From: Microglena sp. YARC
Taxonomy: Eukaryota; Chlorophyta; Chlorophyceae; Chlamydomonadales; Chlamydomonadaceae
Reading direction: 5' to 3'
Length of the DNA stretch: 64,000 nucleotides
NCBI GenBank assembly: GCA_022414725.1
Contig: CM039464.1
Span: forward strand, 17,791,405 to 17,855,404
Shown: in pieces, positions 35,596 through 62,750 of the stretch
Layout of the letters: each line of letters begins with the position of its first letter
Position numbering within the stretch: the first letter of the stretch is position 1
The notes under the pieces: model-generated
What the model was told of the DNA's origin: nothing
Database searches by the model: none
Seen by the model: the letters and a program-made list of their open reading frames with translations, nothing else
Program-made: the position numbers and the translations under genes

Positions 35596-35690
35596 TCAAG
35601 CAGGCTTCTGCTTGACAACACTATGGGAATTCTGAAGGGGGGATCGCGGGTCCCGCGGAGCGGGACAGTGGAATTGAGCTGCTGACTCAC
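35596..35690 (+). repeat. Two-hairpin module, copy 1
   Basis: Hairpin 1 TCAAGCAG-GCTT-CTGCTTGA (35,596-35,615) is perfect. Hairpin 2 GTCCCGC-GGA-GCGGGAC (35,650-35,666) is perfect. The tail gaattgagctgctgactca follows. Confidence 0.85.
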
Positions 35691-35880
35691 TGACTGATAC
35701 CATGTGGCACCATCAAGCAAGCAACAACCCAGCTGCGGCTTGGCTGTTCCGTATACAAATTCAAAAAGACCCATCTTAACAACAAAAATGAATAATACAC
35801 CCTATTACATAAACTAAATGGCACTACTTTCCTACCGGATGAGGAAGAGTACCAATGACCATTTTGAAAACAAAAAACAT

Positions 35881-36360
35881 TCAGATACCTACAAAACCGC
35901 GGGGAGGCAGATGTGATGCAGGGAATGTATTCAGTTCAGCAAACTGTGCGTCAATGATGAGATGGCATGCCCTTGCATCGGATAAATTCCATGCACACCT
36001 GAGGCAGCGACACATCGTTGCAAAGTGCTCGCAGTTGTTGAATGCGGCGTTGTTGACAAATGGGGTTTGCTCAGCATCTTTGACCAGAGCGAGGGCAAGG
36101 CTTGCCGAGAGGGTCTGATCCAGAGCAGCCCCTTCGGGGTACAAAGCCTCCGCAAAGATAGAGCCGTTGGCAACGAAGTCTTCGTAGGATCGCAAGGAGA
36201 CGTTGGCCTGCTCCTTCGAAATTCCCCACACATCAACGACTGTCGGGACTTCGATATCCCCTGGTGCCACAACTTGCTGCCCGACAAAGATGCCATGGTG
36301 CCTGTAACCGGATGCGTCTTTGACCATGATCTGGGCGCCAGGCTTAAGCTTGCCGAGCAT
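35881..36360 (-). CDS. LRAT-like (NlpC/P60 superfamily) protein
   Basis: 159 residues from the ATG at 36,360. The N-terminal LKPGAQIMVKDASGYRHHGIFVG carries the His of the LRAT H-box. The later NNAAFNNCEHFATMC carries the NC motif with the catalytic Cys. Family members are papain-like acyltransferases or hydrolases acting on lipids, in cells and in some large DNA viruses; the lipid substrate here is unknown. The same frame stays open upstream without a Met, and a separate short frame from the ATG at 36,500 ends at 36,384. The start is therefore the first Met before the KPGD-like motif, and a lost upstream part is possible. No other lipid gene is nearby. Confidence 0.75.
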   Translation of the reverse strand: MLGKLKPGAQIMVKDASGYRHHGIFVGQQVVAPGDIEVPTVVDVWGISKEQANVSLRSYEDFVANGSIFAEALYPEGAALDQTLSASLALALVKDAEQTPFVNNAAFNNCEHFATMCRCLRCAWNLSDARACHLIIDAQFAELNTFPASHLPPRGFVGI

Positions 36361-36576
36361 AGCATAGCCGCTCTTGTACGGCGTCAGGGTAGCATATGGG
36401 TGCCCGAGGTCTGGTGGTGACCAAATCTGGAAGCATTCGCTTTGATGTGGGCGATTGCCGATGTGAGGATGTCGGCAAGGGTATCTTCCCGAGCTGCCAT
36501 GTTTGTCTGAAATTATGTGAGATAATATATGTTGAGAATCTAACTTTGTAAACTTGAAACTGGTGTTTGAATGTTA

Positions 36577-36645
36577 TCAAGCAGGATTCTGCTTGGACAC
36601 CCCTTTTGGTTTTATTAAGGGGGAAGCGCGGGAATTCCTGTCCCG
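36577..36645 (+). repeat. Two-hairpin module, divergent copy
   Basis: Hairpin 1 tcaagcaggattctgcttgg. The second part is changed (gcgcgggaattcctgtcccg), which still allows GGGA/TCCC pairing. A fragment (actatgggaattctgaaggg) recurs at 36,886. Confidence 0.6.
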
Positions 36646-36849
36646 AATGACTTCTGCGACGAAGACATCGACTTCTTTCTTCGACTTACACGAAACTTGA
36701 AAAATGTGAATCTTTTGCATAGCACCCAATTCCCGGCCTTTTTCATTAAGGATGACTTTTGAAAAGTCCCGAGTTCTGTACCCGGTGCTTTGGCATTCAA
36801 AAACGTAGTAAATGTTCTTTAATGGCCCGGTGCAAGGTTGTGAAGACAT
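36577..36849 (-). CDS. Small hypothetical protein, 90 residues
   Basis: Not recognised. Mixed hydrophobic and charged sequence (NIYYVFECQSTGYRTRDFSK, KKEVDVFVAEVIRD) looks like a folded small domain. Its last residues and stop lie in a variant of the two-hairpin module (36,577-36,645), so the repeat provides its 3' end. An AT-rich stretch (caaatataaaaaaataac) lies just upstream of the start. Confidence 0.45.
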   Translation of the reverse strand: MSSQPCTGPLKNIYYVFECQSTGYRTRDFSKVILNEKGRELGAMQKIHIFQVSCKSKKEVDVFVAEVIRDRNSRASPLIKPKGVSKQNPA

Positions 36850-36996
36850 GATTATTCTGTGTAGTAATTCAAATATAAAAAAATAACTATGGGAATTCTG
36901 AAGGGGGGAGGGTAAAACGGGTTACACCGCAACCAACAAGTCTTAGATAATTTTATTTTTGTATTTAAAATATATACACTTTCATTCATTCATTGA

Positions 36997-37509
36997 ATGC
37001 CAAAACTACCTCAAGCGAAAAAAGAAACGAAGAGTCGATTTGATGTCGTGTGCTACACAGGTCCCCGTCCACGCGGAAAGAAGGACGACTCGTACACGTC
37101 CGAAGAGTTCGTCGCGTTTATGAAGCATGAGGCCTCTGACAAAAAAGAACGGACGCTTGATGAATGGATAGAGTGGGCAGGCGCGCTCCGCATGAAAGCA
37201 TCGAAGTGCAGAAAAGTAACAAAATGCAACGATAAACTATCGGCTGCAGGTGAAGTCATTGAGAAAACTGAAAAGCCCCTCAAATCTTGTATCGAGAGCA
37301 AATGTCATAGTCGTTATGAACTCATGGCGAGGCTGACCAATAATTCCAAAACCGCCATGAGCTCGTTCGATAAACACGCAAGCACCGCGCGATGCGGTGC
37401 CGTCCATTGCTCGAATGAAGGCGTGAAATATGGCAAGGCGACCAAAGCATGGGACGCAATATCGAAGCGATGCGATATTCCCCGAAAGGGTTGTGCCGGT
37501 GATTGTTGA
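36997..37509 (+). CDS. Hypothetical Cys-containing basic protein, 170 residues
   Basis: Not recognised. Starts MPKLPQAKKETKSRFDVVCY. Basic, with nine scattered Cys (C-KVTKC, SCIESKC, ARCGAVHC, RCDIPRKGCAGDC), compatible with metal or disulfide binding. Ends in CAGDC. An AT-rich promoter-like stretch (tttgtatttaaaatatatac) lies 30-50 bp upstream. Confidence 0.55.
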   Translation: MPKLPQAKKETKSRFDVVCYTGPRPRGKKDDSYTSEEFVAFMKHEASDKKERTLDEWIEWAGALRMKASKCRKVTKCNDKLSAAGEVIEKTEKPLKSCIESKCHSRYELMARLTNNSKTAMSSFDKHASTARCGAVHCSNEGVKYGKATKAWDAISKRCDIPRKGCAGDC

Positions 37510-38033
37510 GGCAGGGTCTTACGCAACCGCATTTACTCAAACGAAAGCCGTGTGTATCAAGCAGGCTTGGAAATGGAAAAACGTTGGGGAGTGCATGAGC
37601 TCACCTCAGATTTAGCTTCGTAATACAGTCAACGGAATACTAAAATGAAACCGCTTCGTGTACGGCACACCTTACGGTGTAACCTAATGGTGTAGCAACC
37701 CACGGGGCAGTGGAACACCAATACGATTTTGAATCAACAAATTGCAGGATGTTAACGAGAATATCGTGGTTCTTTTTTAGATCACGGCTCTCCATCCTGC
37801 AGACTCTGTATCGTTCTTTTGTCGGTACGTTCGAGAGTGTCCATTGAAGGACCAGCCGCACTTAAGCGATCGCCTCTTCCCCGGTACCGTGGCCCAAAAG
37901 AACACGGGGTCTTTGTTGATGTGCAATGCGTCATGAAAGGAGGTTTCTTTGCTGGACGGGCCATTTTGTAGGACCATCCACTCATACAATATATGATTGT
38001 CACCGCCTTATACCGTTTTTTGGATGTTTCATT
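37510..38033. other. Gap with decayed minus-strand coding traces
   Basis: Two overlapping minus-strand frames (37,777-37,989 and 37,640-37,861, the second without an ATG) would join into one protein-like reading if shifted near 37,860. This may be a broken gene. A block at 37,625-37,690 (gaaaccgcttcgtgtacggc) resembles 38,728-38,770. Confidence 0.3.
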
Positions 38034-38851: not shown

Positions 38852-39256
38852 ATGGACTTCACTAATACATCACCAGCTCAGCTAGGCATCATCATCGCTG
38901 ACGGAGGGCCACACAAGAATGCTGCATTGGCTGCACTTGTCCAAACTGCTGAGCGAGCTGATGAGGCAGTGCGGGTGGCGCATGCGGCTGTTGAAGCTGC
39001 CGTAGCCCTGCTGCGAAACAACAACCGGTATGATTTGCTTTGTTGTCTCTATAGCCATTTGAACAACCTAGACAACATCATTAGTATAACACACGACGCT
39101 TGTGATTGTGATTGCACACAGGTGGGTCATCAACTCAACGGAGAAATCGGTGCTTCAGACTGCCCTGCAAGTCCTTCAACCAAGTGGCCATGCCGCTCTG
39201 GTGCAGGGAGGGATTGGAAGGTTGCAACAGTTGACTCGTTTGCTTTCCGAAAATAA
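38852..39256 (+). CDS. Hypothetical Ala-rich helical protein, cut by IS607 copy 1
   Basis: 134 residues. The N-terminal half is strongly helical (LAALVQTAERADEAVRVAHA). The frame runs into the left end of the IS607 element at about 39,219 and stops 37 bases inside it, so the C-terminus (VATVDSFAFRK) belongs to the transposon. The original protein was probably longer or different at its end. Confidence 0.45.
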   Translation: MDFTNTSPAQLGIIIADGGPHKNAALAALVQTAERADEAVRVAHAAVEAAVALLRNNNRYDLLCCLYSHLNNLDNIISITHDACDCDCTQVGHQLNGEIGASDCPASPSTKWPCRSGAGRDWKVATVDSFAFRK

Positions 39257-39306
39257 GTAAACCTAACAGTGTATAAGGAATTTGCATGTACTAAAATCAG
39301 AATGCC

Positions 39307-40230
39307 ATGTATGGCAACCAACGCTTCTGTAAAATTGGCAAGGTCTCCGATGCCCTTGGTGTCTCCAGGACCGTCCTCCGTCGATGGGCGGATAATGGCA
39401 CGATCAGAACGATCCGGACTCCAGGCAACCAACGTCTCTTTGACCCAAGCAGCATCCAAGGCTACCTCATCGAGCAAGAAAAAAAAACCAGCAGTCGTCA
39501 AGTCATTCTCTACGCACGTGTGTCCTCACACAAACAACAACCCGACCTGCTCAGACAGCAATTGTTCTTGCAAACCCATATTTCTGACAAACATTCCGGA
39601 TGCGAGCAAGTCATTGAAGTCAAGGACATCGGATCAGGGCTCAACTTCAAGCGTCCAGGACTTTTACGAGTATTGGGACTCGTCACGGCAGGACTTGTAT
39701 CGTCAATTGTTGTGGCTTCCAAAGACAGGCTCGCAAGGTTTGGTTTCGAGCTCATTGAATGGATTTGCTCGCAGCACTCCTGCTCGATCATCGTTCTCGA
39801 TCACCAAGACGGAGCCCCTAAAGACGAGCTTGGACAAGACCTCATGTCAATCGTTCAAGTATATTGTTGCCGATGGAACGGTCGAAGAAGCTACAAAGTC
39901 AAATGCCAAACCCAAGTTGAGGACCTTAAAGCTGAAGCTGAACCCAACCAAGGATCAGAAATCGATGCTGGCAGAGTTTGCGGGGTGCAGCCGGTTCATG
40001 TACAACAAGGCGGTGGCAGCACGGTTGGGCGTCGGGAGCACTCACAAGTCTGTCTTCCGAATTCGAGACAGGTATGTGACGAACAAGGTGAGGGGGAAGG
40101 GGAAGATGCCAAACCCGTACTTCAAGAATCGCCAATGGTTGCTTCAGTGCCCCAAAAGCGTACGCCAAAGCGCAATCAAGGCTGCCTTGGCAAACATCAA
40201 GGCTTGCTTTTCGAATCTGAAAGCAGGTAA
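39307..40230 (+). CDS. tnpA: IS607-type serine recombinase TnpA, intact
   Basis: The N-terminal MerR-type helix-turn-helix (CKIGKVSDALGVSRTVLRRW, residues 8-27) is followed by the resolvase catalytic domain with YARVSS (Ser about 73), the IGSGLNFKRPGLL segment, and KDRLARFGFELIEWICSQH. It cuts and joins DNA through a covalent serine link during transposition. The family-like part ends near residue 195 (CCRWNGRRSY). The frame then stays open for about 100 more codons over the start of tnpB, so the true C-terminus may be longer than usual or use a signal I cannot see. A nine-A run at codons 58-60 is one base shorter than in copy 2, which keeps the frame. A short duplication gives IRTIRTPG. Confidence 0.88.
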   Translation: MYGNQRFCKIGKVSDALGVSRTVLRRWADNGTIRTIRTPGNQRLFDPSSIQGYLIEQEKKTSSRQVILYARVSSHKQQPDLLRQQLFLQTHISDKHSGCEQVIEVKDIGSGLNFKRPGLLRVLGLVTAGLVSSIVVASKDRLARFGFELIEWICSQHSCSIIVLDHQDGAPKDELGQDLMSIVQVYCCRWNGRRSYKVKCQTQVEDLKAEAEPNQGSEIDAGRVCGVQPVHVQQGGGSTVGRREHSQVCLPNSRQVCDEQGEGEGEDAKPVLQESPMVASVPQKRTPKRNQGCLGKHQGLLFESESR

Positions 40231-41132
40231 CATCAAGCAGTTTTCAGCTCCGTTCAGACGGAAGAAGACAGAGCTTGAGAGGGGTTGGGTCATTGAGATG
40301 GATCAGAAGAACATTTCCAAGGATGGCGACAAACTCTTCATCTTCAAAGACATATTGGGCAACATGCGCTACTTCGGTAGCAAACAACTCCATAAGTTGA
40401 TGCCTGAGGAAAACCCGACCCACGATCCAAAGGTCCAAAAATCCCGCTTCGGCGAATATTTCCTAGTCTTGTCTGTCGCTGCCAGGGACAGGAGGGCAGA
40501 GCGGAAGCCTGTCCATCCAGACAAGGTTGCAACTGCATCCATCGACCCAGGCGTCCGCAAAACAATGGTCACGTACTCACCAGAGAATGAGGAATCCTTC
40601 ATGCTTGGTCAGGGACAGGCATCCGACCTTGTCAAACTCCTGCTGGTTCATGACAAGCTGCAGTCAAGGTTGGATACTGAGAAAAACCTTACGATCAAAA
40701 GAGAGGATGAAGATAAAAAGCAGATGATTCGCATTCGGAAGAGAATTTTTACCTCAAGAAAGAGTTTAGGGACCAGACAACAAATTTCTTGGCCGCTCGC
40801 TACGATGTGTTGTTTGGTACCTCAATTGGAGACGGCGAAGATGACAATCAGTGCTGAACGGGAGCTGACAACCAAGGTTGCCCGTCAGATGCTGACTTTG
40901 AGCCACTCTGTGCTGTTCAATCGGCTGAAGGAGAAGTGTGAAGAGTACGGGGACAGTGTTCTTGCATGTGCTTGAGCATTACACAAGTCAGACATGCCCT
41001 ATGTGCGGTTTCTTAAACAAGTGTGGAGAGACATACACCTGCAAGAACTGTCAATTCACCTGCGACAGAGACATTGTGGGGGCAGCTGGCATCTTCCTGA
41101 AGGCAGTTCGAACAGAAAATCCCTGTTTGTAA
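39896..41132 (+). pseudogene. tnpB: TnpB/Fanzor-type RNA-guided nuclease, frame-broken copy
   Basis: Family features as in the intact copy at 53,868: N-terminal FAGCSRFMYNKAV, RuvC I ASIDPGVRKTMV, RuvC II LETAKMT, zinc ribbon CPMCG..CKNC and final DRDIVGAAGIF. Relative to that copy it has one-base changes at about 40,685 (+A), 40,715 (-1), 40,748 (-T), 40,815 (+T) and 40,952 (+G), and the candidate ATG is AAG. All indels lie in homopolymers or short runs, so sequencing error cannot be excluded. Confidence 0.8.
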
Positions 41133-41276
41133 AGGACAGCATCCCCGGGGGAGTTGACCCCTATGATACCCCTATGGAGAATTCATTGTCTTTCTTACTA
41201 CATGTCCCCCGGACCCCCGGATGTGTAATAAGAAATTCATAGGTTCGAGGATATACGGGTAGCTTAAATTCAACGG
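41133..41276 (+). ncRNA. Candidate TnpB guide RNA region (right end), copy 1
   Basis: The 144 bp after the tnpB stop are almost identical to 55,092-55,234 although they code for nothing. They contain complementary G/C blocks (ccccgggggagttgacccc; tgtcccccggacccccggat). In IS607/IS605 systems the guide (omega) RNA is made from the 3' end of tnpB and the right end, so this is where it is expected. No transcript evidence. Confidence 0.45.
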
Positions 41277-41347
41277 CAGGCATGGGGTTGATCCATTGCG
41301 TCATGGAGTTGTACACGATAATTGGATTAATAGGGAATGGTACTACT

Positions 41348-42930: not shown

Positions 42931-42949
42931 GATCTCGATGACTGCTACT

Positions 42950-43080: not shown

Positions 43081-43236
43081 GGAGTACTTCGGTACTTGGT
43101 TAAGATTGACATGGCTGGGTGTGGCTTGGCCTGGGTGCGTCAAGTAGGGTTCGTATTTTTCGAGGCGCATGGGGACATGTGTCGGATATGACTTGTTTAC
43201 ACACGTGGTTCGAGGCGCATGGGGACACGTGTTGTC

Positions 43237-43330
43237 TCAAGCAGACTTCTGCTTTGACAACTATGTCGGGAGTATGAAAGATGAATCGCGGGACCCACGG
43301 AGTGGGGCAGGGGAATTCAGTTGAGGACTC
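43237..43330 (+). repeat. Two-hairpin module, copy 2
   Basis: Hairpin 1 tcaagcagacttctgctttga (one extra t). Hairpin 2 core CCCAC-GGA-GTGGG. Followed by gaattcagttgaggactc. Confidence 0.8.
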
Positions 43331-43506
43331 GTGTGAAGCTTCGAGGCGCGCGAAAACACATTGGATTACGCCTTGAGTGATAGGGATGCTGATCGAGAGT
43401 TGGGACGCGCGTCATCATGCGGCTTTAGTCGACGACAAGGTTTTCGTGTGCGCCTCAAAAAAACGAGTGTAAGAAACGCAAAATCCGTACAGATTACAGC
43501 CGTACA

Positions 43507-43959
43507 ATGGCTACACTCAATACTTTTAAGGGGGCCTTGGCCACGCCTAAGTACAGTCCATCGAAGCTCGAAGACAACTCTTGCAACCCCCCAAGTGCTT
43601 CTTCAGATCAGCAAAAGCAGGCTAGCGTGTCGGAATCAAGTCGGAATCAAGGCCGCCTTATGATCGAATTCCGTGGTGAGCGCAAGCAAATGCCGCGTCT
43701 ACGAGGTTGGTTGAGGCCGGGAGCCAATAGGCTTTGGTGCAACATCTATAGTATCGAGCCAAGACTTCGCTTCAAGTACGTGGACCATGTTACATTCGAT
43801 GACGATATGTGGGAGTGCAACGCAGTATGGTTGCATTGCCTACATTTACCAAACGGATCAATTTATACAGCGTCGGTCTTTGAGATGCTGAAGGAGGCAG
43901 TCAACATTTTTGTCACAACACCCCGGTGCTGCAAGGTACACACTCCTCGACTCGCATGA
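43507..43959 (+). CDS. Hypothetical protein, 150 residues
   Basis: Not recognised. Ser/Pro-rich N-terminal 50 residues, then a basic, aromatic-rich domain (RLRGWLRPGANRLWCNIYS, RLRFKYVDHVTFDDDMWECN). It lies between two copies of the hairpin module and directly after an inverted-repeat block (43,425-43,506). Confidence 0.45.
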   Translation: MATLNTFKGALATPKYSPSKLEDNSCNPPSASSDQQKQASVSESSRNQGRLMIEFRGERKQMPRLRGWLRPGANRLWCNIYSIEPRLRFKYVDHVTFDDDMWECNAVWLHCLHLPNGSIYTASVFEMLKEAVNIFVTTPRCCKVHTPRLA

Positions 43960-44130
43960 TGATGCGCACCGTTTGGGAGGAGCGCACCTAATTCTCACAA
44001 GGGGGTGGTCATTCGTTTTCTACGCCATGACCGGGAGCAGGTTAGGGGGCAAGGTCTTACTGGCCGTAGCAAGGCCAAAGTAAGTATTCCTCGGTGCCCG
44101 CCATCCCCCTTCAGAACTTCACTAGGATTG

Positions 44131-44150
44131 TCAAGCAGACGCATGCTTGA
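44131..44150 (+). repeat. Hairpin 1 of the two-hairpin module, isolated
   Basis: tcaagcagacgcatgcttga gives a 7-bp stem. The second hairpin is missing; the inverted-repeat block shared with 35,464-35,570 follows. Confidence 0.6.
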
Positions 44151-44340
44151 TACACGGCTTCTTTTGAGTACAGAACCACAGTGAATGCGGTTGCGTAAGA
44201 CTCAATGCGGCTTTAATCGACGACAAGTGTTTCGTGTGCGCTTATAAAAACGAGTCTAAACAACGCAAAATCCATACCATATCCATGACCTTATAAAAAC
44301 CATTGCGATTGCGCTTAGAAAAAGAGTATTCATCGACGCG

Positions 44341-44984: not shown

Positions 44985-45093
44985 TGGAGTTGCCGAGAAT
45001 CGAACCCGGGTCTGTTGGTATAGGGTACCATGAGATTGACGGGAAATAAGAAAACTGCCCTTACCTTACGCTCTACCATTGAGCTACAACCCC
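44985..45093 (-). tRNA. tRNA-like sequence 1 (class II shape, Leu(AAG)-like)
   Basis: Reverse strand: acceptor GGGGTTG pairs with CAACTCC, discriminator A, D-arm GCTC-AATGGTA-GAGC, T-arm CCGGG-TTCGATT-CTCGG. A variable hairpin TGGTA-CCCTA-TACCA precedes the T-arm. The anticodon arm is odd: TAAGG then TAAG; a small intron or decay is likely. AAG would be Leu, and A73 plus a long variable arm fit Leu, but the D-arm looks like a class I tRNA. Confidence 0.55.
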
Positions 45094-45712: not shown

Positions 45713-45764
45713 TTCCTCGATTCCGCGATTCCTCTTTCATGAGCGCATGGGGACACGTGTCGTC

Positions 45765-45855
45765 TCAAGCAGACGTCTGCTTAACAAACTATTTCGGGAT
45801 CATGAAAGAGGAATCGCGGGACCCACGGAGTGGGGCAGGGGAATTGAGCTTCTGA
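45765..45855 (+). repeat. Two-hairpin module, copy 3
   Basis: Hairpin 1 tcaagcagacgtctgcttaa. Hairpin 2 core CCCAC-GGA-GTGGG. It lies 53 bp after the stop of the coiled-coil gene. Confidence 0.8.
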
Positions 45856-45885
45856 CTCGCGGAAACACGTGTCCTAGGATCTGAC

Positions 45886-46260: not shown

Positions 46261-46559
46261 AGTCGGAAACGGTGATCACATGCCAAGCCAAGCAGGTCTC
46301 TGCTAGACAAATCTGCATTCAATATGGTCAGGGTTGCCGGAGCGGAGGTACCATATGTAGAGTTGACAGGTGATGGGTACCTGGAACCCTCCCTATATCA
46401 AGGCGGATCCTGTGTCGAGTCATAGGGCGACTTTCGCATCACGGCGGCACCTGTTGGGATTAGTTGAGTTGAGTTGAGTTGAGTTGCTGCTGCAAGTACC
46501 CCCAAGGGAACGTGCCATGAGGGAAGCACCAGATACGTGGTCTGTCCCTATTTCGATTT
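46261..46559. other. Gap without gene
   Basis: Contains (gagtt)n at 46,463-46,485 and a partial hairpin-1 element at 46,287. The frames here are the out-of-frame tail of the ankyrin-like gene. Confidence 0.4.
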
Positions 46560-51512: not shown

Positions 51513-51941
51513 GTATTGGGACATCGTCAGTCAGCGCGTCATCGAGGACATCCGCACGTGCAACGGAGCCATAACGAGATCGCGCGCATCGCAAAAAAAT
51601 ACTTGGCAAACGCATCGCTTCCGCGAGCACGAACGGCAAGATATGGTACGTATTTGACGGGCGATGGAAGACGGACGTCGCCGCGATCCACGTCAAGCAC
51701 GAGCTGTCCACCGTTGTTCTAGAGCACTTCATTATCGCTATGAACAAGGAGAGAGCGTCCCAAAGCGCTTACGACATGCAGAGCAACGCGAGCACAAAGA
51801 ACGACGCCGACCGGCTATCGCACATCACCGCGCGCCTCCAGGACGCGACCTTCAAGAATAACGTCCTGCAAGAGATGCTCGAGTACTTTTACGACCCGGA
51901 CTTCATGAAGAAACCCAAACCTCTTAGGGTTCAACAACGGC
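51470..51941 (+). pseudogene. Linking part of the primase-helicase, split over several frames
   Basis: Protein-like segments appear in successive frames: RHDSPVEYWDIVSQRVIEDI (to about 51,570), NEIARIAKKYLA (to about 51,615), then GKIWYVFDGRWKTDVAA and MNKERASQ...VLQEMLEYFYDPDF (to about 51,920), and then the helicase frame. This implies four frame changes in about 450 bp. Causes may be decay, read errors or small introns. Confidence 0.7.
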
Positions 51942-52973
51942 GTGTGGGACCTCAAAAACGGCGTCTTCCGTCAAGGGCTCTCCATGTCCGTGGGATTCGA
52001 TTACAATGTCGCAGTGTGCGAGGAATCAGCAGACCGCGTGCGGAAATACTGGGACACGATGCACCCCGACGACAACCAACAAGAATACCTCATCCACACA
52101 TTTGCTAGACAGCTGTACGGAGACAGCGGACAAGAGCTCTTTCACATACACGCCGGTGCCAACGCGTCCGCCTCTAACGGGAAGACCAAGTTCTTCGAAG
52201 TCATGGAGATCGCATTGGGCGACTACATCCGGAAATTCGGCGTGGAAATGCTGACAAGCAAGCAACGCATCAATCCAGGTCGCCCGATGCCAGAGTTTGC
52301 GACGTGGAAGGGGGTCCGCATTATGTATTGCACAGAGCCAAACCACGACGAAGTCTTAAATTCCGGAGTCCTCAAGGATATGACCGGTGGGGAAGGCATC
52401 ACCTACCGCCTCTTGCACTCCAGCGACATCGTAAGCTTCCGCCCGCAACACAAGATACACATCATGTGCAACGCCCCGCCGATGGTCGACGGTTCTGACT
52501 CTGGAGTCCAACGACGGATACGAAAACTCGACTACATCAGTCGGTTTGTGGACGCGGATGATGCGGACGCCGACAAATTCGTCTTCCCACAAGGCGCCGG
52601 GCTTGTAGAGTCATTCAAGGCAGACGGAGCGATGCGCATGGAGTTCCTACGCACCCTTCTACACGCGTTTGCATACGCGTACAAGTTCGATATGCCCGAT
52701 TCGTTAAAGCAGACCAGTGCGATGTACTTGAACGCGAGCGACGCCGTGGCTATGTTCGTCGAAGAGCACGTCGCAGCCAGCCCGGACAGCGCATTTCTGC
52801 TGAAGGAGGCCAAAGAACGCTTCAAGACATGCGAATATTTCAACGGGAAACTCAGCACGATCAAGACGGACCTGGAACGTCACCTAAGCGTCAGGTGTCT
52901 AGATCAAAGCCGCGTCAAAAGCCGCGGAAACGAAAATTTGCGAGGGGTTTTCAAAGGATACAGGCTGGTGTAA
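51942..52973 (+). CDS. D5-like superfamily 3 helicase domain
   Basis: 343 residues as an open frame; the family-like sequence begins a little upstream (GFNNGVWDLKNGVF pattern). Walker A GANASASNGKTKF (residues 72-84), Walker B RIMYCTEP (126-133), sensor KIHIMCNAPP (171-180), arginine-finger region GVQRRIRKLDY (188-198). This is the D5/NCLDV type of replicative helicase, normally fused behind the prim-pol encoded just upstream. The C-terminal part (residues 260-343, ASDAVAMFVEEHV, FKTCEYFNGK) matches the usual C-terminal DNA-binding region. The ATP-site residues look intact. Confidence 0.85.
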   Translation: MWDLKNGVFRQGLSMSVGFDYNVAVCEESADRVRKYWDTMHPDDNQQEYLIHTFARQLYGDSGQELFHIHAGANASASNGKTKFFEVMEIALGDYIRKFGVEMLTSKQRINPGRPMPEFATWKGVRIMYCTEPNHDEVLNSGVLKDMTGGEGITYRLLHSSDIVSFRPQHKIHIMCNAPPMVDGSDSGVQRRIRKLDYISRFVDADDADADKFVFPQGAGLVESFKADGAMRMEFLRTLLHAFAYAYKFDMPDSLKQTSAMYLNASDAVAMFVEEHVAASPDSAFLLKEAKERFKTCEYFNGKLSTIKTDLERHLSVRCLDQSRVKSRGNENLRGVFKGYRLV

Positions 52974-53206
52974 AGAATCGAATGAATGAATGCAAGCAAA
53001 CGCACGTACGTACAAACACACGCAAAGGGATGAACACTGTCATCGTCCATCTGACTCCACATGCAAACGGCGGAAACATGTCCTCGTCTCCAAAAGACAC
53101 CGCGGCGGCAAGCGCATCCTCATTGTCTCGTCCATCTGTCTCCAGGCTCGATGATAATGATGCTTATGGATTATCTAGTTTGTTCAGAAAATTAGGATGG
53201 AAGCAA
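52974..53206 (+). other. Spacer between helicase gene and IS607 copy 2
   Basis: Includes catctgactccacatgcaaa and cggcggaaacatgtc, shared with 63,733-63,770. No gene. The frame that crosses it ends inside the transposon. Confidence 0.45.
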
Positions 53207-53296
53207 AGGTTGCAACAGTTGACTCTTTTGCTTTCCGAAAATAAGTAAACCTAACAGTGTATAAGGAATTTGCATGTACTAAATATCAGAATGCTA

Positions 53297-54190
53297 TGTA
53301 TGGCAACCAACGCTTCTGTAAAATTGGCAAGGTCTCCGATGCCCTTGGTGTCTCCAGGACCGTCCTCCGTCGATGGGCGGATAATGGCACGATCCGGACC
53401 CCAGGCCACCAACGTCTCTTTGACCCAAGCAGCATCCAAGGCTACCTCATCGAGCAGGAAAAAAAAAACCAGCAGTCGTCAAGTCATTCTCTACGCACGT
53501 GTGTCCTCACACAAACAACAACCCGACCTGCTCAGACAGCAATTGTTCTTGCAAACCCATATTTCTGACAAACATTCCGGATGCGAGCAAGTCAAGGACG
53601 TCGGATCAGGGCTCAACTTCAAGCGCCCAGGACTTTTACGAGTATTGGGACTCGTCACGGCAGGACTTGTATCGTCAATTGTTGTGGCTTCCAAAGACAG
53701 GCTCGCAAGGTTTGGTTTCGAGCTCATTGAATGGATTTGCTCGCAGCACTCCTGCTCGATCATCGTTCTCGATCACCAAGACGGAGCCCCTGAAGACGAG
53801 CTTGGACAAGACCTCATGTCCATCGTTCAAGTATATTGTTGCCGATGGAACGGTCGAAGACGCTACAATGTCAAATGCCAAACCCAAGTTGAGGACCTTA
53901 AACCCAATCAAGGATCAGAAATCGATGCTGGCAGAGTTTGCGGGGTGCAGCCGGTTCATGTACAACAAGGCTGTGGCAGCACGGTTGGGCGTCGGGAGCA
54001 CTCACAAGTCTGTCTTCCGAATTCGAGACAGGTATGTGACGAACAAGGTGAGGGGGGAGGGGAAGATGCCAAACCCGTACTTCAAGAATCGCCAATGGTT
54101 GCTTCAGTGCCCCAAAAGCGTACGCCAAAGCGCAATCAAGGCTGCCTTGGCAAACATCAAGGCTTGCTTTTCGAATCTGAAAGCAGGTAA
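53297..54190 (+). pseudogene. tnpA: TnpA serine recombinase, frame-broken in copy 2
   Basis: The frame starting MYGNQRFCKIGKVSDALGVS runs into an A10 run (53,459-53,468) where copy 1 has A9. Afterwards the recombinase continues in the other frame with YARVSSHKQQPDLLRQQ and KDRLARFGFELIEW, to 54,190. One base separates it from an intact gene. Transcriptional slippage or a programmed shift on the A run is possible, as is a read error. Confidence 0.82.
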
Positions 54191-55091
54191 CATCAAGCAG
54201 TTTTCAGCTCCGTTCAGACGGAAGAAGACAGAGCTTGAGAGGGGTTGGGCCATTGAGATGGATCAGAAGAACATTTCCAAGGATGGCGACAAACTCTTCA
54301 TCTTCAAAGACATATTGAGCAACATGCGTTACTTCGGTAGCAAACAACTCCATAAGTTGATGCCTGAGGAAAACCCGACCCACGATCCAAAGGTCCAAAA
54401 ATCCCGCTTCGGCGAATATTTCCTAGTCTTGTCTGTCGCTGCCAGGGACAGGAGGGCAGAGCGGAAGCCTGTCCATCCAGACAAGGTTGCAACTGCATCC
54501 ATCGACCCAGGCGTCCGCAAAACAATGGTCACGTACTCACCAGAGAATGAGGAATCCTTCATGCTTGGTCAGGGACAGGCATCCGACCTTGTCAAACTCC
54601 TGCTGGTTCATGACAAGCTGCAGTCAAGGTTGGATACTGAGAAAACCTTACGATCAAAAGAGAGGATGAAGATAAAGAAGCAGATGATTCGCATTCGGAA
54701 GAGAATTTTTTACCTCAAGAAAGAGTTTAGGGACCAGATAACAAATTTCTTGGCCGCTCGCTACGATGTGTTGTTGGTACCTCAATTGGAGACGGCGAAG
54801 ATGACAATCAGTGCTGAACGGGAGCTGACAACCAAGGTTGCCCGTCAGATGCTGACTTTGAGCCACTCTGTGCTGTTCAATCGGCTGAAGGAGAAGTGTG
54901 AAGAGTACGGGACAGTGTTCTTGCATGTGCTTGAGCATTACACGAGTCAGACATGCCCTATGTGCGGTTTATTGAACAAGTGTGGAGAGACATACACCTG
55001 CAAGAACTGTCAATTCACCTGCGACAGAGACATTGTGGGGGCAGCTGGCATCTTCCTGAAGGCAGTTCGAACAGAAAATCCCTGTTCGTAA
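53868..55091 (+). CDS. tnpB: TnpB/Fanzor-type RNA-guided nuclease, intact
   Basis: 407 residues from the ATG at 53,868 (MSNAKPKLRT), which sits just before the conserved N-terminal FAGCSRFMYNKAV. Middle FKNRQWLLQCPKSVRQSAIK and FRRKKTELERGW. RuvC I ASIDPGVRKTMVTY, RuvC II LVPQLETAKMT, zinc ribbon TCPMCGLLNKCG..YTCKNCQF, RuvC III CDRDIVGAAGIF. Length and motifs fit the IS607-linked TnpB/Fanzor family, whose members cut DNA under guide of an RNA from the transposon end and promote its retention. The same frame is open upstream to 53,499 across tnpA; those codons are probably not translated. The 5' part overlaps the extended tnpA frame by about 320 bp. Confidence 0.88.
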   Translation: MSNAKPKLRTLNPIKDQKSMLAEFAGCSRFMYNKAVAARLGVGSTHKSVFRIRDRYVTNKVRGEGKMPNPYFKNRQWLLQCPKSVRQSAIKAALANIKACFSNLKAGNIKQFSAPFRRKKTELERGWAIEMDQKNISKDGDKLFIFKDILSNMRYFGSKQLHKLMPEENPTHDPKVQKSRFGEYFLVLSVAARDRRAERKPVHPDKVATASIDPGVRKTMVTYSPENEESFMLGQGQASDLVKLLLVHDKLQSRLDTEKTLRSKERMKIKKQMIRIRKRIFYLKKEFRDQITNFLAARYDVLLVPQLETAKMTISAERELTTKVARQMLTLSHSVLFNRLKEKCEEYGTVFLHVLEHYTSQTCPMCGLLNKCGETYTCKNCQFTCDRDIVGAAGIFLKAVRTENPCS

Positions 55092-55234
55092 AGGACAGCA
55101 GCCCCGGGGGAGTTGACCCCTATGATACCCCTATGGAGAATTCATTGTCTTTCTTACTACATGTCCCCCGGACCCCGGATGTGTAATAAGAAATTCATAG
55201 GTTCGAGGATATACGGGTAGCTTAAATTCAACGG
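55092..55234 (+). ncRNA. Candidate TnpB guide RNA region (right end), copy 2
   Basis: Near-identical to 41,133-41,276, with few substitutions (atccccggggg to agccccggggg). It ends at the transposon border, after which a guide would start in host sequence (gaaggactaag...). Inferred from position and conservation. Confidence 0.45.
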
Positions 55235-55734
55235 AAGGACTAAGGCGGCTTCAAGGAACCCTCAAGGATTGTACAGAGTGCCCAGGAGACTTTCACAGCT
55301 TGGAAGGAGAGATTCTGACGATTCCTCTTTTGACAGAGGAACTGCTCGTCTTCGCAAGCGGTGGCGGCTACCTTGACAGCACTCTCATCGATCCGAGAGG
55401 TTAGCCAACCTCGAGTGTGTTATCAGACATCGGGGTTTTGGCAATCCCCATCGATGCTGTCGGGCGTGAGCCACACACTTCACTCGAGGCTCGATGAATG
55501 ATGCTGCTTATGGAAAGGAGGAAGATGTCGGTCGGTAGGTCGGTCGTGTTCGAAGGAAGAGAGAGGAGAACAAAACAAAAGGAAAATAATTATGCAGTTT
55601 CGGGGATCGTCGGGTCTTTTATCATGTCCGGCGATCGATTGTACCGCTGCCAGCACTACACAGGATTTAGGTGAGGGGGCTTATGCCACTCACTACGTTT
55701 TCACTCGTTTTTAGAGGAACGGCGACCACTCTCA
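55235..55734. other. Gap without gene
   Basis: At 55,425-55,460 gacatcggggttttggcaat resembles 63,830-63,860. Near 55,493 cgatgaatgatgctgcttat resembles the sequence at 53,150 left of IS607 copy 2. No supported frame. Confidence 0.4.
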
Positions 55735-56280
55735 TCAAGGACGGCGGCATCTGTGTCGAGTCGAGTCGAGTCGCAGAGTCACATGGCGACATCTCGCATC
55801 ACGGCGGCACGTGTGTCGAGTCACATGGCGACCTCTCGCATCACGGCGGCACCTGTGTCGAGTCACATGGCGACCTCTCGCATCACGGCGGCACCTGTGT
55901 CGAGTCACAGAGCGACCGACCTCTCGCATCACGGCGGCACCTGTGTCGATTCACGTCACAGAGCGACTTTCGCATCACGGCGGAACCTGTGTTGAGTCAC
56001 ATCACAGAGCGACCGACATCTCGCATCACGGCGGCACCTGTGTTGATTCACGTCACAGAGCGACCACTCTCATCAGGCGGAACTTGTGTCGAGTCACATC
56101 ACAGAGTGACCACTCTCATCGGGCGGCACTTGTGTCGAGTCACATCACAGAGCGACCTCTCGCATCAGGCGGAACTTGTGTCGAGTCACATCACAGAGCG
56201 ACCTCTCGCATCACGACGGTACCTGTGTCGAGTCACACGGCGACCACTATCATCAATGCGGAACGATGTCGACTTACGGG
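55735..56280 (+). repeat. CGGCGGCACCTGTGTCGAGT array 1
   Basis: Eleven units of 38-48 bp: ctctcgcatcacggcggcac, ctgtgtcgagtcacatcaca, gagcgac. Related arrays are at 61,225-61,690 and 62,335-62,580. Frames through it are artefacts. Confidence 0.9.
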
Positions 56281-56387
56281 GGACGATCGCTCGCATCGCA
56301 AACAAGTCGATACTCTCTAAGATATTATCACTCACAGATGACGGAAAACACGGTAAAGTAATTGCAACCTGTGATCACATATCAAGC

Positions 56388-56450
56388 ATGGGTCTGCTAG
56401 ACAAGCGCTCTCGTATATCGATAGGGGAATTGCGGCCCCCACGGAACACC
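56388..56450 (+). repeat. Two-hairpin module, subtype B, truncated
   Basis: tcaagcatgggtctgctagac, then atcgataggggaattgcggc and the start of hairpin 2 (ccccacgga). It is cut by the 113-bp satellite. Confidence 0.65.
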
Positions 56451-56451
56451 A

Positions 56452-57650
56452 TTTTCAGAGGTGTTCATGCGAACACGTTCGTTTAAAATAGGGATTGATG
56501 TGAGCCTCCGGCATTCTTCAGTATTTATTTTTTGTTGAAATAATTGTTGTTACCGAGATGGAGAGTCTTTTCAGAGGTGTTCATGTGAACACGTTTGTTT
56601 AAAATAGGGATTGATGTGAGCCTCCGGCATTCTTCAGTATTTATTTTTTGTTGAAATAATTGTTGTTACCGAGATGGAGAGTCTTTTCAGATGTGTTCAT
56701 GTGAACACGTTTGTTTAAAATAGGGATTGATGTGAGCCTCCGGCATTCTTCAGTATTTATTTTTTGTTGAAATAATTGTTGTTACCGAGATGGAGAGTCT
56801 TTTCAGAGGTGTTCATGCGAACACGTTCGTTTAAAATAGGGATTGATGTGAGCCTCCGGCATTCTTCAGTATTTATTTTTTGTTGAAATAATTGTTGTTA
56901 CCGAGATGGAGAGTCTTTTCAGAGGTGTTTATGTGAACACGTTTGTTTAAAATAGGGATTGATGTGAGCCTCCGACATTCTTCAGTATTTATTTTTTGTT
57001 GAAATAATTGTTTTTACCGAGATGGAGAGTCTTTTCAGATGTGTTCATGTGAAAACGTTTAAAATAGGGATTGATGTGAGCCTCCGGCATTCTTCAGTAT
57101 TTATTTTCAGTTGAAATAATTGTTGTTACCGAGATGGAGAGTCTTTTCAGAGGTGTTCATGCGAACACGTTCGTTTAAAATAGGGATTGATGTGAGCCTC
57201 CGGCATTCTTCAGTATTTATTTTTTGTTGAAATAATTGTTGTTACCGAGATGGAGAGTCTTTTCAGAGGTGTTCATGTGAACACGTTTGTTTAAAATAGG
57301 GATTGATGTTAGCCTCCGACATTCTTCAGTATTTATTTTTTGTTGAAATAATTGTTGTTACCGAGATGGAGAGTCTTTTCAGATGTGTTCATGTGAACAC
57401 GTTTAAAATAGGGATTGATGTGAGCCTCCGGCATTCTTCAGTATTTATTTTTTGTTGAAATAATTGTTGTTACCGAGATGGAGAGTCTTTTCAGAGGTGT
57501 TCATGTGAACACGTTTAAAATAGGGATTGATGTGAGCATCCAGCATTCTTCAGTATTTATTTTTTGTTGAAATAATTGTTGTTACCGAGATGGAGAGTCT
57601 TTTCAGAGGTGTTCATGTTTAAAATAGGGATTGATCTGAGCCTCTGGCAT
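56452..57650 (+). repeat. 113-119-bp satellite, about 10.5 units
   Basis: The unit has ttttcagaggtgttcatgtg with the palindrome gtgttcatgtgaacac, gtttaaaatagggattgatg, tgagcctccggcattcttca and ttgttgaaataattgttgtt. A single fragment of it occurs at 63,781-63,830. It ends about 80 bp before the 3' end of the T5orf172 gene on the minus strand. Confidence 0.93.
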
Positions 57651-57729
57651 TCTTCATACAATTTTTCACGACCGCATCATACGCGTGCTTTATCTGTCTG
57701 TGAGTGCGTGCAGCAATGGATAACAGAGC

Positions 57730-59010
57730 TCAATCCAATACAGGCCACATCTTCTCACGCATGTCATTGATGACATCCGTAATGCAGAAAGAGTAAACAG
57801 CACCCGTGTTGCAGCGTCGCTTGGAGACGCCCCTCAAGCCAAGCTTGGACATCTTGAGACCAAACTTGATCAAGGTGGTTTCATGTTTAGGAGAACCAGG
57901 GATCGGGGATAGCCAGTCATTGAACATGGAGAACAAGGTGGCCGCCGTGAAGCTCACAGAATCATTGATACGGGGATGCGAGACGCTCTGCTCTTGCATC
58001 AGGTGCAAGAGGAATTGGGACTCAATCAGCAGGATGTCTTCGGGGGTAGCTTTTTGCAGGGTGTACCTCGTGTCCAGGCCGCACTCCTGGACGACCTGCG
58101 CCAGCTCGACAACGTCAGAAACAGTCGCCTGTAGCCCCTCCTCCTTGCAGAACGTGACGTAAGCATTGTACATGCCCGGGGTCGTGGCGATATGCGGTCG
58201 CAGATCGCCGGGGGTGGTGGCAATGCACCGCTCATCCAGAAAGCGGAGGATATTCTTGTGGCGAGTGAAGTCGGGGAACCGCAGGGCACGACGGGGAAGC
58301 AGCAGGCCGTCGAAAATGTGCTGGATGGGTTGGATGCCCAGATCCTTGAGCGATGATACCACTTTCTTGGCGGTGAAGCTCGACCTGGGTAGCTTCGACA
58401 GTACCCGAGCGACAAATGCGCCCTGATCCAACACCGCACCAGACAGCTCTGTTGCATTGGCCTCGACAAAGTCGTGCACCATATCGTAACACTCGATGTT
58501 AGCCTGAACGACGTTGTCAAAAAGCACAGTCACCACACGTGAGACGTACGTCTCACGATCCATACGCTCCTGGTCCGTCTCCTCAGATTCAACGGCGGAT
58601 TCCACGGATCCCTCAGATTCAACGGAGTCATCACGTGGAGTGTCACACTCCTCCTGTTTGCCACCGCAGTCGTCGCCATACCAGGCGTACTTCAAAACGT
58701 TCGCTAACATACCATTGTAAACGGTGGCTTCGCCCACATCGAAGTACTCGGCACCCAGATCTCTTCGTGGCTGGATTCTGGAATCGTAACCACCGCGCAT
58801 GTACCTGAGCAGTGTCGCCTCTGCATCCACGCACGCTTGTGCATCTCGAACATGGATGGCAAAAATGAGCTGGGATCCATTGGGGTACTGCGAGAGCCTC
58901 TTGCAGAACGGCTGGCTGGTCCGGCCGACCTTGACGACCAACGGGGACAATTTGCCCAGGAACTCGCGCTCGACGAGGGCGTACACGACGTGCTGGGTGT
59001 GGTGCGCCAT
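57730..59010 (-). CDS. T5orf172/MUG113-like (GIY-YIG superfamily) protein, paralog 1
   Basis: 426 residues from MAHHTQHVVYALVE, chosen because the divergent paralog starts MAHMTTNVVYALVE; an upstream Met at 59,049 exists. N-terminal domain: VVYALVE, VVKVGRTSQPFCKRLSQYP, IFAIHV, AEATLLRYMRGG, RRDLGAEYFDV, the T5orf172 pattern related to GIY-YIG nucleases. An acidic Ser/Glu linker (ESEGSVESAVESEETDQERM) follows, then a long helical region and a C-terminal domain (SFTAATLFSMFNDWLSPIPG) that resembles DNA-binding tails of viral replication proteins. Nuclease activity is unproven for this family. Confidence 0.7.
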   Translation of the reverse strand: MAHHTQHVVYALVEREFLGKLSPLVVKVGRTSQPFCKRLSQYPNGSQLIFAIHVRDAQACVDAEATLLRYMRGGYDSRIQPRRDLGAEYFDVGEATVYNGMLANVLKYAWYGDDCGGKQEECDTPRDDSVESEGSVESAVESEETDQERMDRETYVSRVVTVLFDNVVQANIECYDMVHDFVEANATELSGAVLDQGAFVARVLSKLPRSSFTAKKVVSSLKDLGIQPIQHIFDGLLLPRRALRFPDFTRHKNILRFLDERCIATTPGDLRPHIATTPGMYNAYVTFCKEEGLQATVSDVVELAQVVQECGLDTRYTLQKATPEDILLIESQFLLHLMQEQSVSHPRINDSVSFTAATLFSMFNDWLSPIPGSPKHETTLIKFGLKMSKLGLRGVSKRRCNTGAVYSFCITDVINDMREKMWPVLD

Positions 59011-59201
59011 GGATGGATGATACACAAGGGAAGGGAAGGCTTGACTCAACCAATATGCTTGTCGCGAGCTTTATATCGTGATAATCGAGCGTTTTTACGA
59101 GGTTTGGAGATCTTCAGATCTTCAGGTCCATGCGACATCCACCATGTCACACATATGACAAGGAGTGACGAGAATCCGTGTGTCATGAAAGCCGCCATGG
59201 C

Positions 59202-59237
<36 letters not shown>

Positions 59238-59552
59238 ATGAATGATGGACGGGGTCGCAAATGGTGATCACATGTCAAGCATAGGCCTGCTATACAATAG
59301 ATCTCGTACATCGATAGGGGAATCGCGGGCCCCACGGAGTGGGGTAGGGGAATTGAGCTGCAGAAACCAAGTGTGTCAAGGCATCAATCAATCATCACAC
59401 GCAAAACTGTGGAAAACTGTCGCATCCACACCGTCCGTCCGTCCGTCCATTCATGACACACGGATGCGGTGGCGGATCATCGCCACTCATCGTTTAGTGG
59501 AAGTGGTGTAAACGCGAGCATAATATAGCATAGGAGCAGCTCGACAGCGATC
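59011..59552. promoter_or_regulatory. Shared divergent promoter region of the T5orf172 pair
   Basis: It separates two divergent paralogs. TATA-like motifs: cataatatag at about 59,519, some 30 bp before the right-hand ATG, and gatataaag on the minus strand at about 59,068-59,076. It also contains a (TG)n tract (59,203-59,233) and a full hairpin module (59,276-59,365). Confidence 0.5.
59276..59365 (+). repeat. Two-hairpin module, subtype B
   Basis: tcaagcataggcctgctata, then atcgataggggaatcgcggg and hairpin 2 GCCCCAC-GGA-GTGGGGT, then gaattgagctgcagaaacc. Confidence 0.8.
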
Positions 59553-61052: not shown

Positions 61053-61186
61053 CTGTCAAGTCTTACACAATGTGTATGTTGTTTGTAAAAGATTCACTTG
61101 TTTGTAACACTTGGGTTTATTATCACGGTAACGCTTGAGCTTCTTTCTCACTGGAACGCTTGGGCGTTTCCGATGTGTCGTCTCAA

Positions 61187-61245
61187 GCAGACTTCTGCTT
61201 GACAACTATGTCGGGAGTATGAAAGAGGAATCGCGGGACACACGG
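61187..61245 (+). repeat. Two-hairpin module, copy 4 (fused to repeat array)
   Basis: Perfect hairpin 1 tcaagcagacttctgcttga. The sequence follows the module to gaatcgcgggac and then switches to the CGGCGGCACCTG array, replacing hairpin 2. Confidence 0.75.
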
Positions 61246-61690
61246 CGGCACCTGTCGAGTCGAGTCGAGTCACATCACAGAGCGACCGACCTCTCGCATC
61301 ACGGCGGCACCTGTCGAGTTGAGTCACACTCGCATCACTGCGGAACCTGTGTCGTGTCACAGAGCGACCACTCGCATCAGGCGGCACCTGTCGAGTCGAG
61401 TAACATCACACGGCGACCTCTCGCATCACGGCGGCACCTGTCGATTCGTGTCACATCACAGAGCGACCTCTCGCATCACGGCGGAACCTGTCGAGTCGAC
61501 TCACATCACAGAGCGACCACTCGCATCAGGCGGTACCTGTCGAGTCGAGTAACATCACACGGCGACCTCTCGCATCACGGCGGCACCTGTCGATTCGAGT
61601 CACATCACAGAGCGACCTCTCGCATCACGGCGGAACCTGTCGAGTCGACTCACAGAGTCACAGAGCGACCACTTTCATCAGGCGGAACCT
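61246..61690 (+). repeat. CGGCGGCACCTGTCGAGT array 2
   Basis: About nine units related to 55,735-56,280, mostly with ctgtcgagtcgagtcacatc in place of ctgtgtcgagtcacatc. Confidence 0.88.
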
Positions 61691-61765
61691 GTGTTGACTT
61701 ACGGGGGACGATCCCTCGCATCGCAAAGAAGTCGATACTCTCTAAGACAACCTGTGATCACATGT

Positions 61766-61830
61766 CAAGCATGGGTCGATAGGGGAATCGCGGGCCCCAC
61801 GGAGTGTGGCAGGGGAATTTAGTTGCAGAA
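61766..61830 (+). repeat. Two-hairpin module, subtype B, shortened
   Basis: tcaagcatgggtcgataggg (hairpin 1 deleted), then GCCCCAC-GGA-GTGTGGC, then gaatttagttgcagaaacc. Confidence 0.7.
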
Positions 61831-61965
61831 ACCTGTCAAGTCATCATACACGTACACACGCAAACGGCGGATTCTCGTCACTCATCGCTCGTCCTCGAAT
61901 GAAATAACCATTCTTCAGTGTAAACAACCATCAGCACAGCACAGCACAGCACACTTCACAAACGA

Positions 61966-62193
61966 ATGAGTTCCTTTGACGAAATCAATGAAGATGTCGC
62001 ACAAATGAGTGAAGATGTCAAACGAATCAATGAAGATGTCAGACGAATCAATGAAGATGTCAGACGAATCAATGAAGATGTCAAACGAATGAGTTCCTTT
62101 GACGAAATCAATGAAGATGTCGCCTCTCGTTTGCGGAAAGTGGAGATGCGTCACACCCCGGTGTGTCACAAGGATCCACCTAAGACATTATAA
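61966..62193 (+). CDS. Small coiled-coil protein with 21-bp coding repeats
   Basis: 75 residues: MSSFDEINEDVAQMSEDVKR, then RINEDV heptads three times, then MSSFDEINEDVASRLRKVEM. The DNA repeat gaatcaatgaagatgtcaga (21 bp) equals one heptad, so unit number can change without a frameshift. The first line of the protein recurs after the heptads. Role unknown. Confidence 0.5.
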   Translation: MSSFDEINEDVAQMSEDVKRINEDVRRINEDVRRINEDVKRMSSFDEINEDVASRLRKVEMRHTPVCHKDPPKTL

Positions 62194-62283
62194 AAGTTTG
62201 GAATACGCATTATCACGCATTTGCACTGTAACGCTTGAGCTTCTTCCTAACTGGAACGCTTGGGCGTTTCCGATGTGTTGTCT

Positions 62284-62345
62284 TCAAGTAGACTTCTGCT
62301 CGACAACTATGTCGGGAGTATGAAAGAGGATTCGCGGGACACACG
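62284..62345 (+). repeat. Two-hairpin module, copy 5 (fused to repeat array)
   Basis: tcaagtagacttctgctcga, then gggagtatgaaagaggattc, then array 3, as at 61,187. The upstream gcttgggcgtttccgatgtg is also shared with 61,158, so the whole 61.13-61.25 block is duplicated here. Confidence 0.75.
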
Positions 62346-62580
62346 GCGGCACCTGTCGAGTCGAGTCACAGAGCGACCGACCTCTCGCATCAGGCGGCAC
62401 CTGTGTCGAGTCACATCACAGAGCGACAGACCTCTCGCATCAGGCGGCGGCACCTGTCGAGTCGAGTCACATCACAGAGCGACTTTCGCATCAGGCGGCG
62501 GCACCTGTCGAGTCGAGTCGAGTCGAGTCGAGTCACATCACACGGCGACCTATCGCATCACGGCGGCACCTGTGTCAATA
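62335..62580 (+). repeat. CGGCGGCACCTGTCGAGT array 3
   Basis: Five to six units of the family at 55,735 and 61,246, with an internal gagtc run (62,510-62,533). Confidence 0.88.
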
Positions 62581-62653
62581 CCTCGATACTGTAAGATATC
62601 ACTCACAGATGACGGAAAACCCGGTAAAGTAATCGCAAACGATGATCACATGT

Positions 62654-62750
62654 CAAGCAGAGGCATGCTAGACAATAGATCTCGTATATCTATAGGGGAA
62701 TCGCGGGCCCCACGGAGTGGGGCAGGGGAATTGAGCTGCAGAAACCTGTC
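62654..62750 (+). repeat. Two-hairpin module, subtype B, full copy
   Basis: tcaagcagaggcatgctaga, then ataggggaatcgcgggc, hairpin 2 GCCCCAC-GGA-GTGGGGC (perfect), then gaattgagctgcagaaacc. The next 65 bp (tcaaggcatcaatcaatcat, ctgtggaaaactgtcgcatc) are shared with 59,378-59,440. Confidence 0.85.

Follow-up and report, generated by a model that had tools for sequence, protein, structure and literature searches.

A 64-kb window (64,000 nucleotides) of contig CM039464.1 of Microglena sp. YARC (Chlorophyta) contains a repeated short module with two small palindromes, hairpin 1 and hairpin 2, which is confirmed here as 12 copies plus fragments, far above chance. The module is most likely of an ordinary kind, namely a lineage-specific interspersed repeat in giant-virus-like DNA. 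The reading we prefer, at slightly less than even chances, is that it represents a short non-coding interspersed DNA repeat family of a decaying endogenous giant-virus-like segment and has spread as DNA. Its unusual feature is that it is bipartite, with two conserved blocks around a free linker, while breaks located in hairpin 2 are a suggestive feature. The evidence for a selected fold that comes from paired base changes, put forward in the first-pass annotation of this DNA, is one copy deep.

Copies were located with the Basic Local Alignment Search Tool (BLAST), using six module regions as queries against the window, and were then aligned to give a sequence-only model, R1; copy counts, strand counts and confinement all refer to the 64-kb window. 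At E<=5 with default filters, R1 finds 19 matches, every one beyond 35.5 kb. These comprise the 12 copies, which are the model's own training sequences (38.9-72.3 bits, E 3.6e-11 to 1.4e-21), two fragments (45720-45789 on the minus strand and 46288-46314 on the plus strand), and five short matches that hit hairpin 1 of known copies in reverse orientation, which are expected for a near-palindrome. Independently of R1, a BLAST query of 221 bp around copy 35596 recovers 10 of the 11 other copies, missing 49077, as well as one 24-nt fragment, at E <= 5.9e-4. Below 35.5 kb R1 has no match at E<=5 with default filters, and within the window the module is therefore found only in the virus-like part, as had been claimed. 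The earlier count of about 12 copies also stands, but not their placement on the same strand, since the plus strand carries 11 copies and the minus strand one (44088-44154, 51.2 bits). Some occurrences of TCAAGCAG, the left arm of hairpin 1, do not belong to module copies, for example those in a 222-bp tandem array at 49.5-50.6 kb and in two IS607/Fanzor-like genes.

Pairing and paired changes in the two hairpins

The form of hairpin 1 described in the first-pass annotation, TCAAGCAG-N4-CTGCTTGA, is exact in two copies (35596 and 61183), but imperfect in 9 of the 12 and lost in 61766. Among the 11 copies counted (61766 has no right arm and was left out), the core AGCA/TGCT pairs in all, in one via G-U, the third pair is broken in five copies and the innermost in four, and there are zero double changes. 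Both arms of hairpin 2 are present in 6 of the 12 copies, the right arm being absent in the remaining six; the GGA loop was correctly described as constant, and is so in 6/6 copies with both arms. In these six full copies, 39 of 42 cells pair and two double changes occur, both in copy 35596. An uncompensated mismatch is found in three of the six, the same one in 43237 and 45765, the variant that had rightly been called imperfect, and another in 61766. The reported paired changes thus exist, but in copy 35596 alone, and the two may represent one event. The changed left arm of this copy and the adjacent invariant GCGGG form the palindrome CGCGGG-T-CCCGCG, as local templating would give.

When both hairpins are considered over 12 copies, 81.4% of the cells pair, a value reached by 39/500 shuffles, and two pairs show double changes, which is reached by 219/500. 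The covariation score of this larger alignment does not exceed that of shuffles (reached by 284/500), and hairpin 1 contains no double change; the step from covariation to selection on the fold is not supported. RNAalifold recovered neither hairpin from the 12-copy alignment, predicting instead that the right arm of hairpin 1 forms a helix with GCGGG. Of the 10 copies folded singly (62284 and 49077 were left out), six had z-scores below zero (-0.23 to -1.96) and four above it (+0.71 to +1.24). A search of Rfam gave no match at any module at family cut-offs, and a ribozyme or other described RNA was rejected as the identity of the module on this ground; a mir-616 match overlapping copy 45765 is far below the cut-off (E 2.5) and is taken as chance. 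A tRNA-derived SINE was set aside on inspection by eye. Hairpins alone are no marker of the virus-like part, since a census of stem-8 hairpins counted 19 in the host-like part versus 7 in the virus-like part. Perfect stem-10 hairpins unrelated to the module are also found in the host-like part (1-35000), 18 being observed versus 0.1 in shuffles.

Conserved blocks, breakpoints and individual copies

The copies can be divided into subfamilies A, A' and B, with copy 36577 divergent. Common to all of these, with minor variation, are hairpin 1 and the word AATCGCGGG. The conserved sequence forms two blocks, one being hairpin 1 and the other consisting of AATCGCGGG, hairpin 2 and the tail, which are joined by a subfamily-specific linker. 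Comparison of four copies each of A and B, leaving out the deleted copy 61766, revealed identities of 72% for hairpin 1, 36% for the linker, 28% for the left flank and 84% for block 2, as well as 69% for hairpin 2 with truncated copies included and 88% for the tail (two copies each). Two typed linker strings gave p 0.05, so that the linkers may be faintly related. In 6/6 full copies, the sequences ATCGCGGG and GGAATT that surround hairpin 2 are invariant while the arms vary, indicating that conservation does not follow pairing; ATCGCGGG, the most constant part of the family, is unpaired in the hairpin model of the first-pass annotation.

All copies except 44147 are on the plus strand. Subfamily A comprises copies 43237 (43229-43334) and 45765 (45757-45862), both having one A.G mismatch in hairpin 2; copy 61183 (61175-61250), which is cut at the hairpin 2 loop and runs into a minisatellite; and copy 62284 (62275-62351), truncated in the same way. 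Subfamily A' consists of copy 35596 (35588-35693), with both hairpins perfect and the sole one with paired changes, and the minus-strand copy 44147 (44088-44154), which is without the right half of hairpin 2. In subfamily B, copies 62653 (62645-62750) and 59275 (59267-59372) are full length, 56382 (56374-56446) is cut at the hairpin 2 loop, 49077 (49069-49136) is cut in a hairpin 2 arm, and 61766 (61758-61837) has lost the right half of hairpin 1 and the linker through an internal deletion and has one mismatch in hairpin 2. The divergent copy 36577 (36569-36650) contains hairpin 1, and a different hairpin, CGGGA...TCCCG, replaces hairpin 2. The 24-nt fragment matched by BLAST (36886-36909, plus strand) is identical to the linker and block 2 portion of copy 35596. 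A probable fragment at 37507-37568 (plus strand), absent from the R1 list, corresponds to the A' left flank up to TCAAGCAGGCTT and is cut within hairpin 1; 22 nt of it were identified by BLAST (E 0.002) and the remainder by eye. The fragment at 46288-46314 represents hairpin 1 alone with a subfamily B left flank, while the minus-strand match at 45720-45789 overlaps copy 45765, its part 45723-45742 being an inverted copy of 45800-45819.

The six right-truncated copies end at distances of 5, 5, 7, 13, 13 and 14 nt, counted from where GCGG begins, and all six breakpoints fall in the stretch that starts with the first base of the hairpin 2 5' arm and ends at the loop. Copies 61183 and 62284 lie in one duplicated block, and their junction shares CACGG with the minisatellite, which makes the exact break uncertain. 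The breakpoint of the minus-strand copy is at 5 by strict scoring and in the loop by BLAST. Three of the six truncated copies run into tandem arrays. The breaks may mark hairpin 2 as a weak point, or some copies may retain an older, shorter form; the former is favoured because the tail is common to A and B. Duplicated blocks differ in extent: 35466-35659 is repeated in inverted orientation as 44277-44088, 43215-43331 as 45743-45859, 59255-59443 as 62633-62816, and 61124-61491 as 62224-62573. Related minisatellite arrays with units of about 42-51 bp adjoin copies at 55719-56322, 61241-61703 and 62342-62576, and a 116-bp tandem array (56452-57618) adjoins copy 56382. A repeat of 73-91 bp is located near copies (35449-35538, 43417-43507 and 44205-44277), directly upstream of the open reading frames (ORFs) 43507 and 44341, and may be a common promoter region.

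According to a mechanical ORF list, copies 36577, 43237 and 59275 are located between divergent ORFs; for 59275 the longer ORF 57730-59010 was used and the overlapping plus-strand ORF 58852-59241 was passed over. Copies 45765, 49077 and 61183 lie 3' of a plus-strand ORF, and the minus-strand copy comes after ORF 43507-43959, with the opposite orientation. The module may be intergenic, as had been stated, but 6 of the 12 copies (45765, 56382, 61183, 61766, 62284 and 62653) overlap listed ORFs of at least 100 aa, which are taken as spurious because they run through repeats. The mixed position relative to ORFs makes a promoter or a 3'-end signal a poor fit, and the earlier suggestion of hairpins at mRNA 3' ends is likewise difficult to reconcile with three copies between divergent ORFs.

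Origin of the module

If the module is a repeat family spread as DNA, its copies would have arisen by duplication and by strand switching in replication or repair, in which the short GC-rich palindrome of hairpin 2 would act as a weak point. This explanation draws on the confinement of the copies, the compositional step near 35 kb, the differing extents of the duplicated blocks, the breakpoints in hairpin 2, the invariance of sequence beside varying arms, the uncompensated mismatches and the palindrome formed in copy 35596. For the double change in that copy, the simplest source would then be a single template switch that rewrote one arm from the other, rather than repeated RNA-selected compensation, and the likeness of the two blocks is assumed to have been kept by common descent and gene conversion. 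Template switching is a reported source of multibase compensatory changes in hairpins (PMC8794818). Several points weigh against this explanation. The uneven divergence between A and B is the pattern of sequence constraint, unlike plain decay; the pairing and double changes of hairpin 2 taken alone, in the six full copies, are reached by 15/500 shuffles and 0/6 slid registers; and the bias of 11/12 copies towards one orientation has a two-sided probability of 0.006 assuming independent copies, which some are not. In addition, direct repeats of 9-10 nt, which are possible target duplications, flank 3 of 12 copies, and we infer the template switch at 35596 from the clustered double change, no switch having been seen directly.

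Two of the options named in the first-pass annotation, a hairpin-type mobile element and a recombination site, retain some probability. The main rival, which we regard as rather doubtful, is a non-autonomous transposon resembling miniature inverted-repeat transposable elements (MITEs), mobilised in trans by the transposase of either the element or its host. The module is short, non-coding, dispersed and hairpin-bearing, and MITE-like repeats are reported in giant viruses (PMC10664404). However, comparison of the flanks from -100 to +200, with offsets counted from TCAAGCAG, revealed no terminal inverted repeat that the 12 copies have in the same place. Flank 8-mer matches are in excess (13 direct and 15 inverted vs 4.9 and 2.5 expected), but at differing places, the direct ones in 5 and the inverted ones in 4 of the 12 copies. 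The flanking direct repeats are 10 nt long at copies 36577 (-27/+116) and 43237 (-28/+103), with different sequences, and 9 nt long at 45765 (-12/+100); their windows were picked after the 8-mer comparison had been seen, and sequences and offsets differ between copies. At random places outside tandem arrays, at least 9 nt is reached by 2.2% and at least 10 nt by 0.9%; six copies pass this no-array filter, two of which have the 10-nt repeats, while it would drop the other 6 of 12, 45765 included. With tandem arrays counted, 13% of random places reach 9 nt, and the repeat of 43237 has a third occurrence at -78. A 15-bp inverted repeat was observed around copy 59275 (59175-59189 and 59450-59464) and was not found at its sister copy 62653. 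The ends of the two IS607/Fanzor-like (TnpB-like) elements in the same segment were rejected as a source of the module, as 20 comparisons covering 5 of the 12 copies on both strands found no significant similarity (best shuffle fraction 0.06).

It is unlikely that the module is a cis-acting DNA site of the virus-like element, such as a replication origin or a packaging or recombination site, at which a putative protein would bind the two blocks, the linker would serve as a spacer, and hairpin 2 would be extruded or nicked. The conservation of both blocks across subfamilies with a poorly conserved linker, the breakpoints in hairpin 2 and the common orientation of most copies are consistent with such a site; six copies without the right arm and tail, one without the linker and half of hairpin 1, irregular spacing, and the lack of an identified partner protein argue against it. 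A more specific version, to which we give little credence, is a bipartite cis-acting site whose GC-rich hairpin would be extruded and then cut or bypassed in replication, the breaks in hairpin 2 being scars of use. A structured RNA signal, for example a hairpin for mRNA 3'-end processing or a small non-coding RNA, appears very unlikely: the pairing of the AGCA/TGCT core in 11/11 copies and of 39/42 hairpin 2 cells in six full copies speaks for it, and the lack of covariation above shuffles over 12 copies, the RNAalifold result, z-scores between -1.96 and +1.24 in 10 copies, the lack of an Rfam family at the cut-off, the location of 36577, 43237 and 59275 between divergent ORFs, and the lack of a complete hairpin 2 in half of the copies speak against it.

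Virus-like setting and giant-virus repeats

The region beyond about 35 kb is read as an endogenous giant-virus-like segment in a eukaryote on the basis of its composition and predicted genes, although an assembly join may be responsible instead. In the nine 4-kb bins whose starts run from 1 to 32001, the CpG observed/expected ratio lies at 0.24-0.70, compared with 0.79-1.16 in the seven bins from 36001 on, and G or C runs of at least 8 occur in 8/9 of the first and 0/7 of the last bins. The step is near 35.0-35.3 kb, located roughly by 500-bp CpG counts (33.0-34.2 kb is also moderate), and the window includes a single edge of the segment. Several genes beyond about 35 kb are virus-like. A prim-pol ORF with a PriCT-2 domain is located at 50604-51512; the helicase-type ORF 51984-52973 has no Pfam match itself, but its nearest relative, P0001 (96%), has a D5_N domain, and another relative is found in Edaphochlamys debaryana (51% over 91%), a green alga. 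The prim-pol and helicase-type parts occupy separate ORFs (50604-52973), while relative P0024 has both in one protein, which suggests a possibly decaying gene. An ORF with an LRAT domain and another with a T5orf172 match below the cut-off are also present. Two 97% identical elements carry an IS607-type recombinase and a TnpB/Fanzor-like protein (39218-41280 and 53206-55238); the Fanzor-like ORF of the second (53868-55091) is open over 407 aa, while the listed ORF of the first ends earlier, at 40975. In the PDB the Fanzor-like ORF matches 'TnpB-like protein L79' (1.7e-15), L79 being a mimivirus protein. Two tRNA-like genes of 109-111 nt with an apparent intron (44985-45093 and 48723-48833, both on the minus strand) each lie directly downstream of a paralogous ORF of 191-198 aa; that at 48723-48833 is below the Rfam cut-off, and neither is in the ARAGORN list.

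Two exact module patterns had no match in viral contigs. A third pattern matched one viral contig, and one pattern matched two loci in genome contigs; R1 matches two of these three loci over only 19-23 nt (12.1 bits, E 0.0029 each) and has no match at the third. The three loci are taken as chance, because the patterns themselves selected those words. At the protein level, searching viral contigs with the helicase-type ORF, a helicase alignment and the 198-aa family yielded no confirmed relative, a DNA search of phage records with 59255-59443 gave no match, and literature searches covering open-licence papers listed none whose title or abstract start describes the module.

Pithovirus M1 and M2 are interspersed palindromic MITE-like repeats whose terminal inverted repeats measure 54 and 47 bp and which have a putative TA target duplication (PMC10664404). 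Like them, the module is a short, non-coding, hairpin-forming, MITE-like repeat of unclear origin dispersed in giant-virus DNA, but instead of palindrome arms of about 50 bp it has two hairpins of 7-8 bp, and its copies lack positionally consistent terminal inverted repeats. The Submariner MITEs of pandoraviruses, also non-autonomous repeats within giant-virus genomes, are reported to be linked to a transposon of the amoeba host (PMC4495683, PMC6004678), whereas no parent element of the module was found in the window. The hairpins at mimivirus mRNA 3' ends likewise lie outside genes in giant-virus DNA and keep their structure without conserved sequence (PMC4402537), with stems of at least 13 bp (PMC8557863); in the module, by contrast, sequence is conserved, including the unpaired ATCGCGGG, the stems of 7-8 bp are often broken, and the position relative to ORFs is mixed.

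With its unusual bipartite conservation, the module is an addition to the repeat families known from giant-virus DNA. It also illustrates how, when copies are few, paired changes in the arms of a short palindrome can be misread as RNA structure under selection. If the extruded-hairpin explanation were true, the module would be a hairpin-directed rearrangement signal unlike the giant-virus hairpins that we found described. If the clustering of breakpoints in hairpin 2 holds in more copies, the family would offer a naturally occurring example of rearrangement driven by hairpins in endogenous viral DNA.

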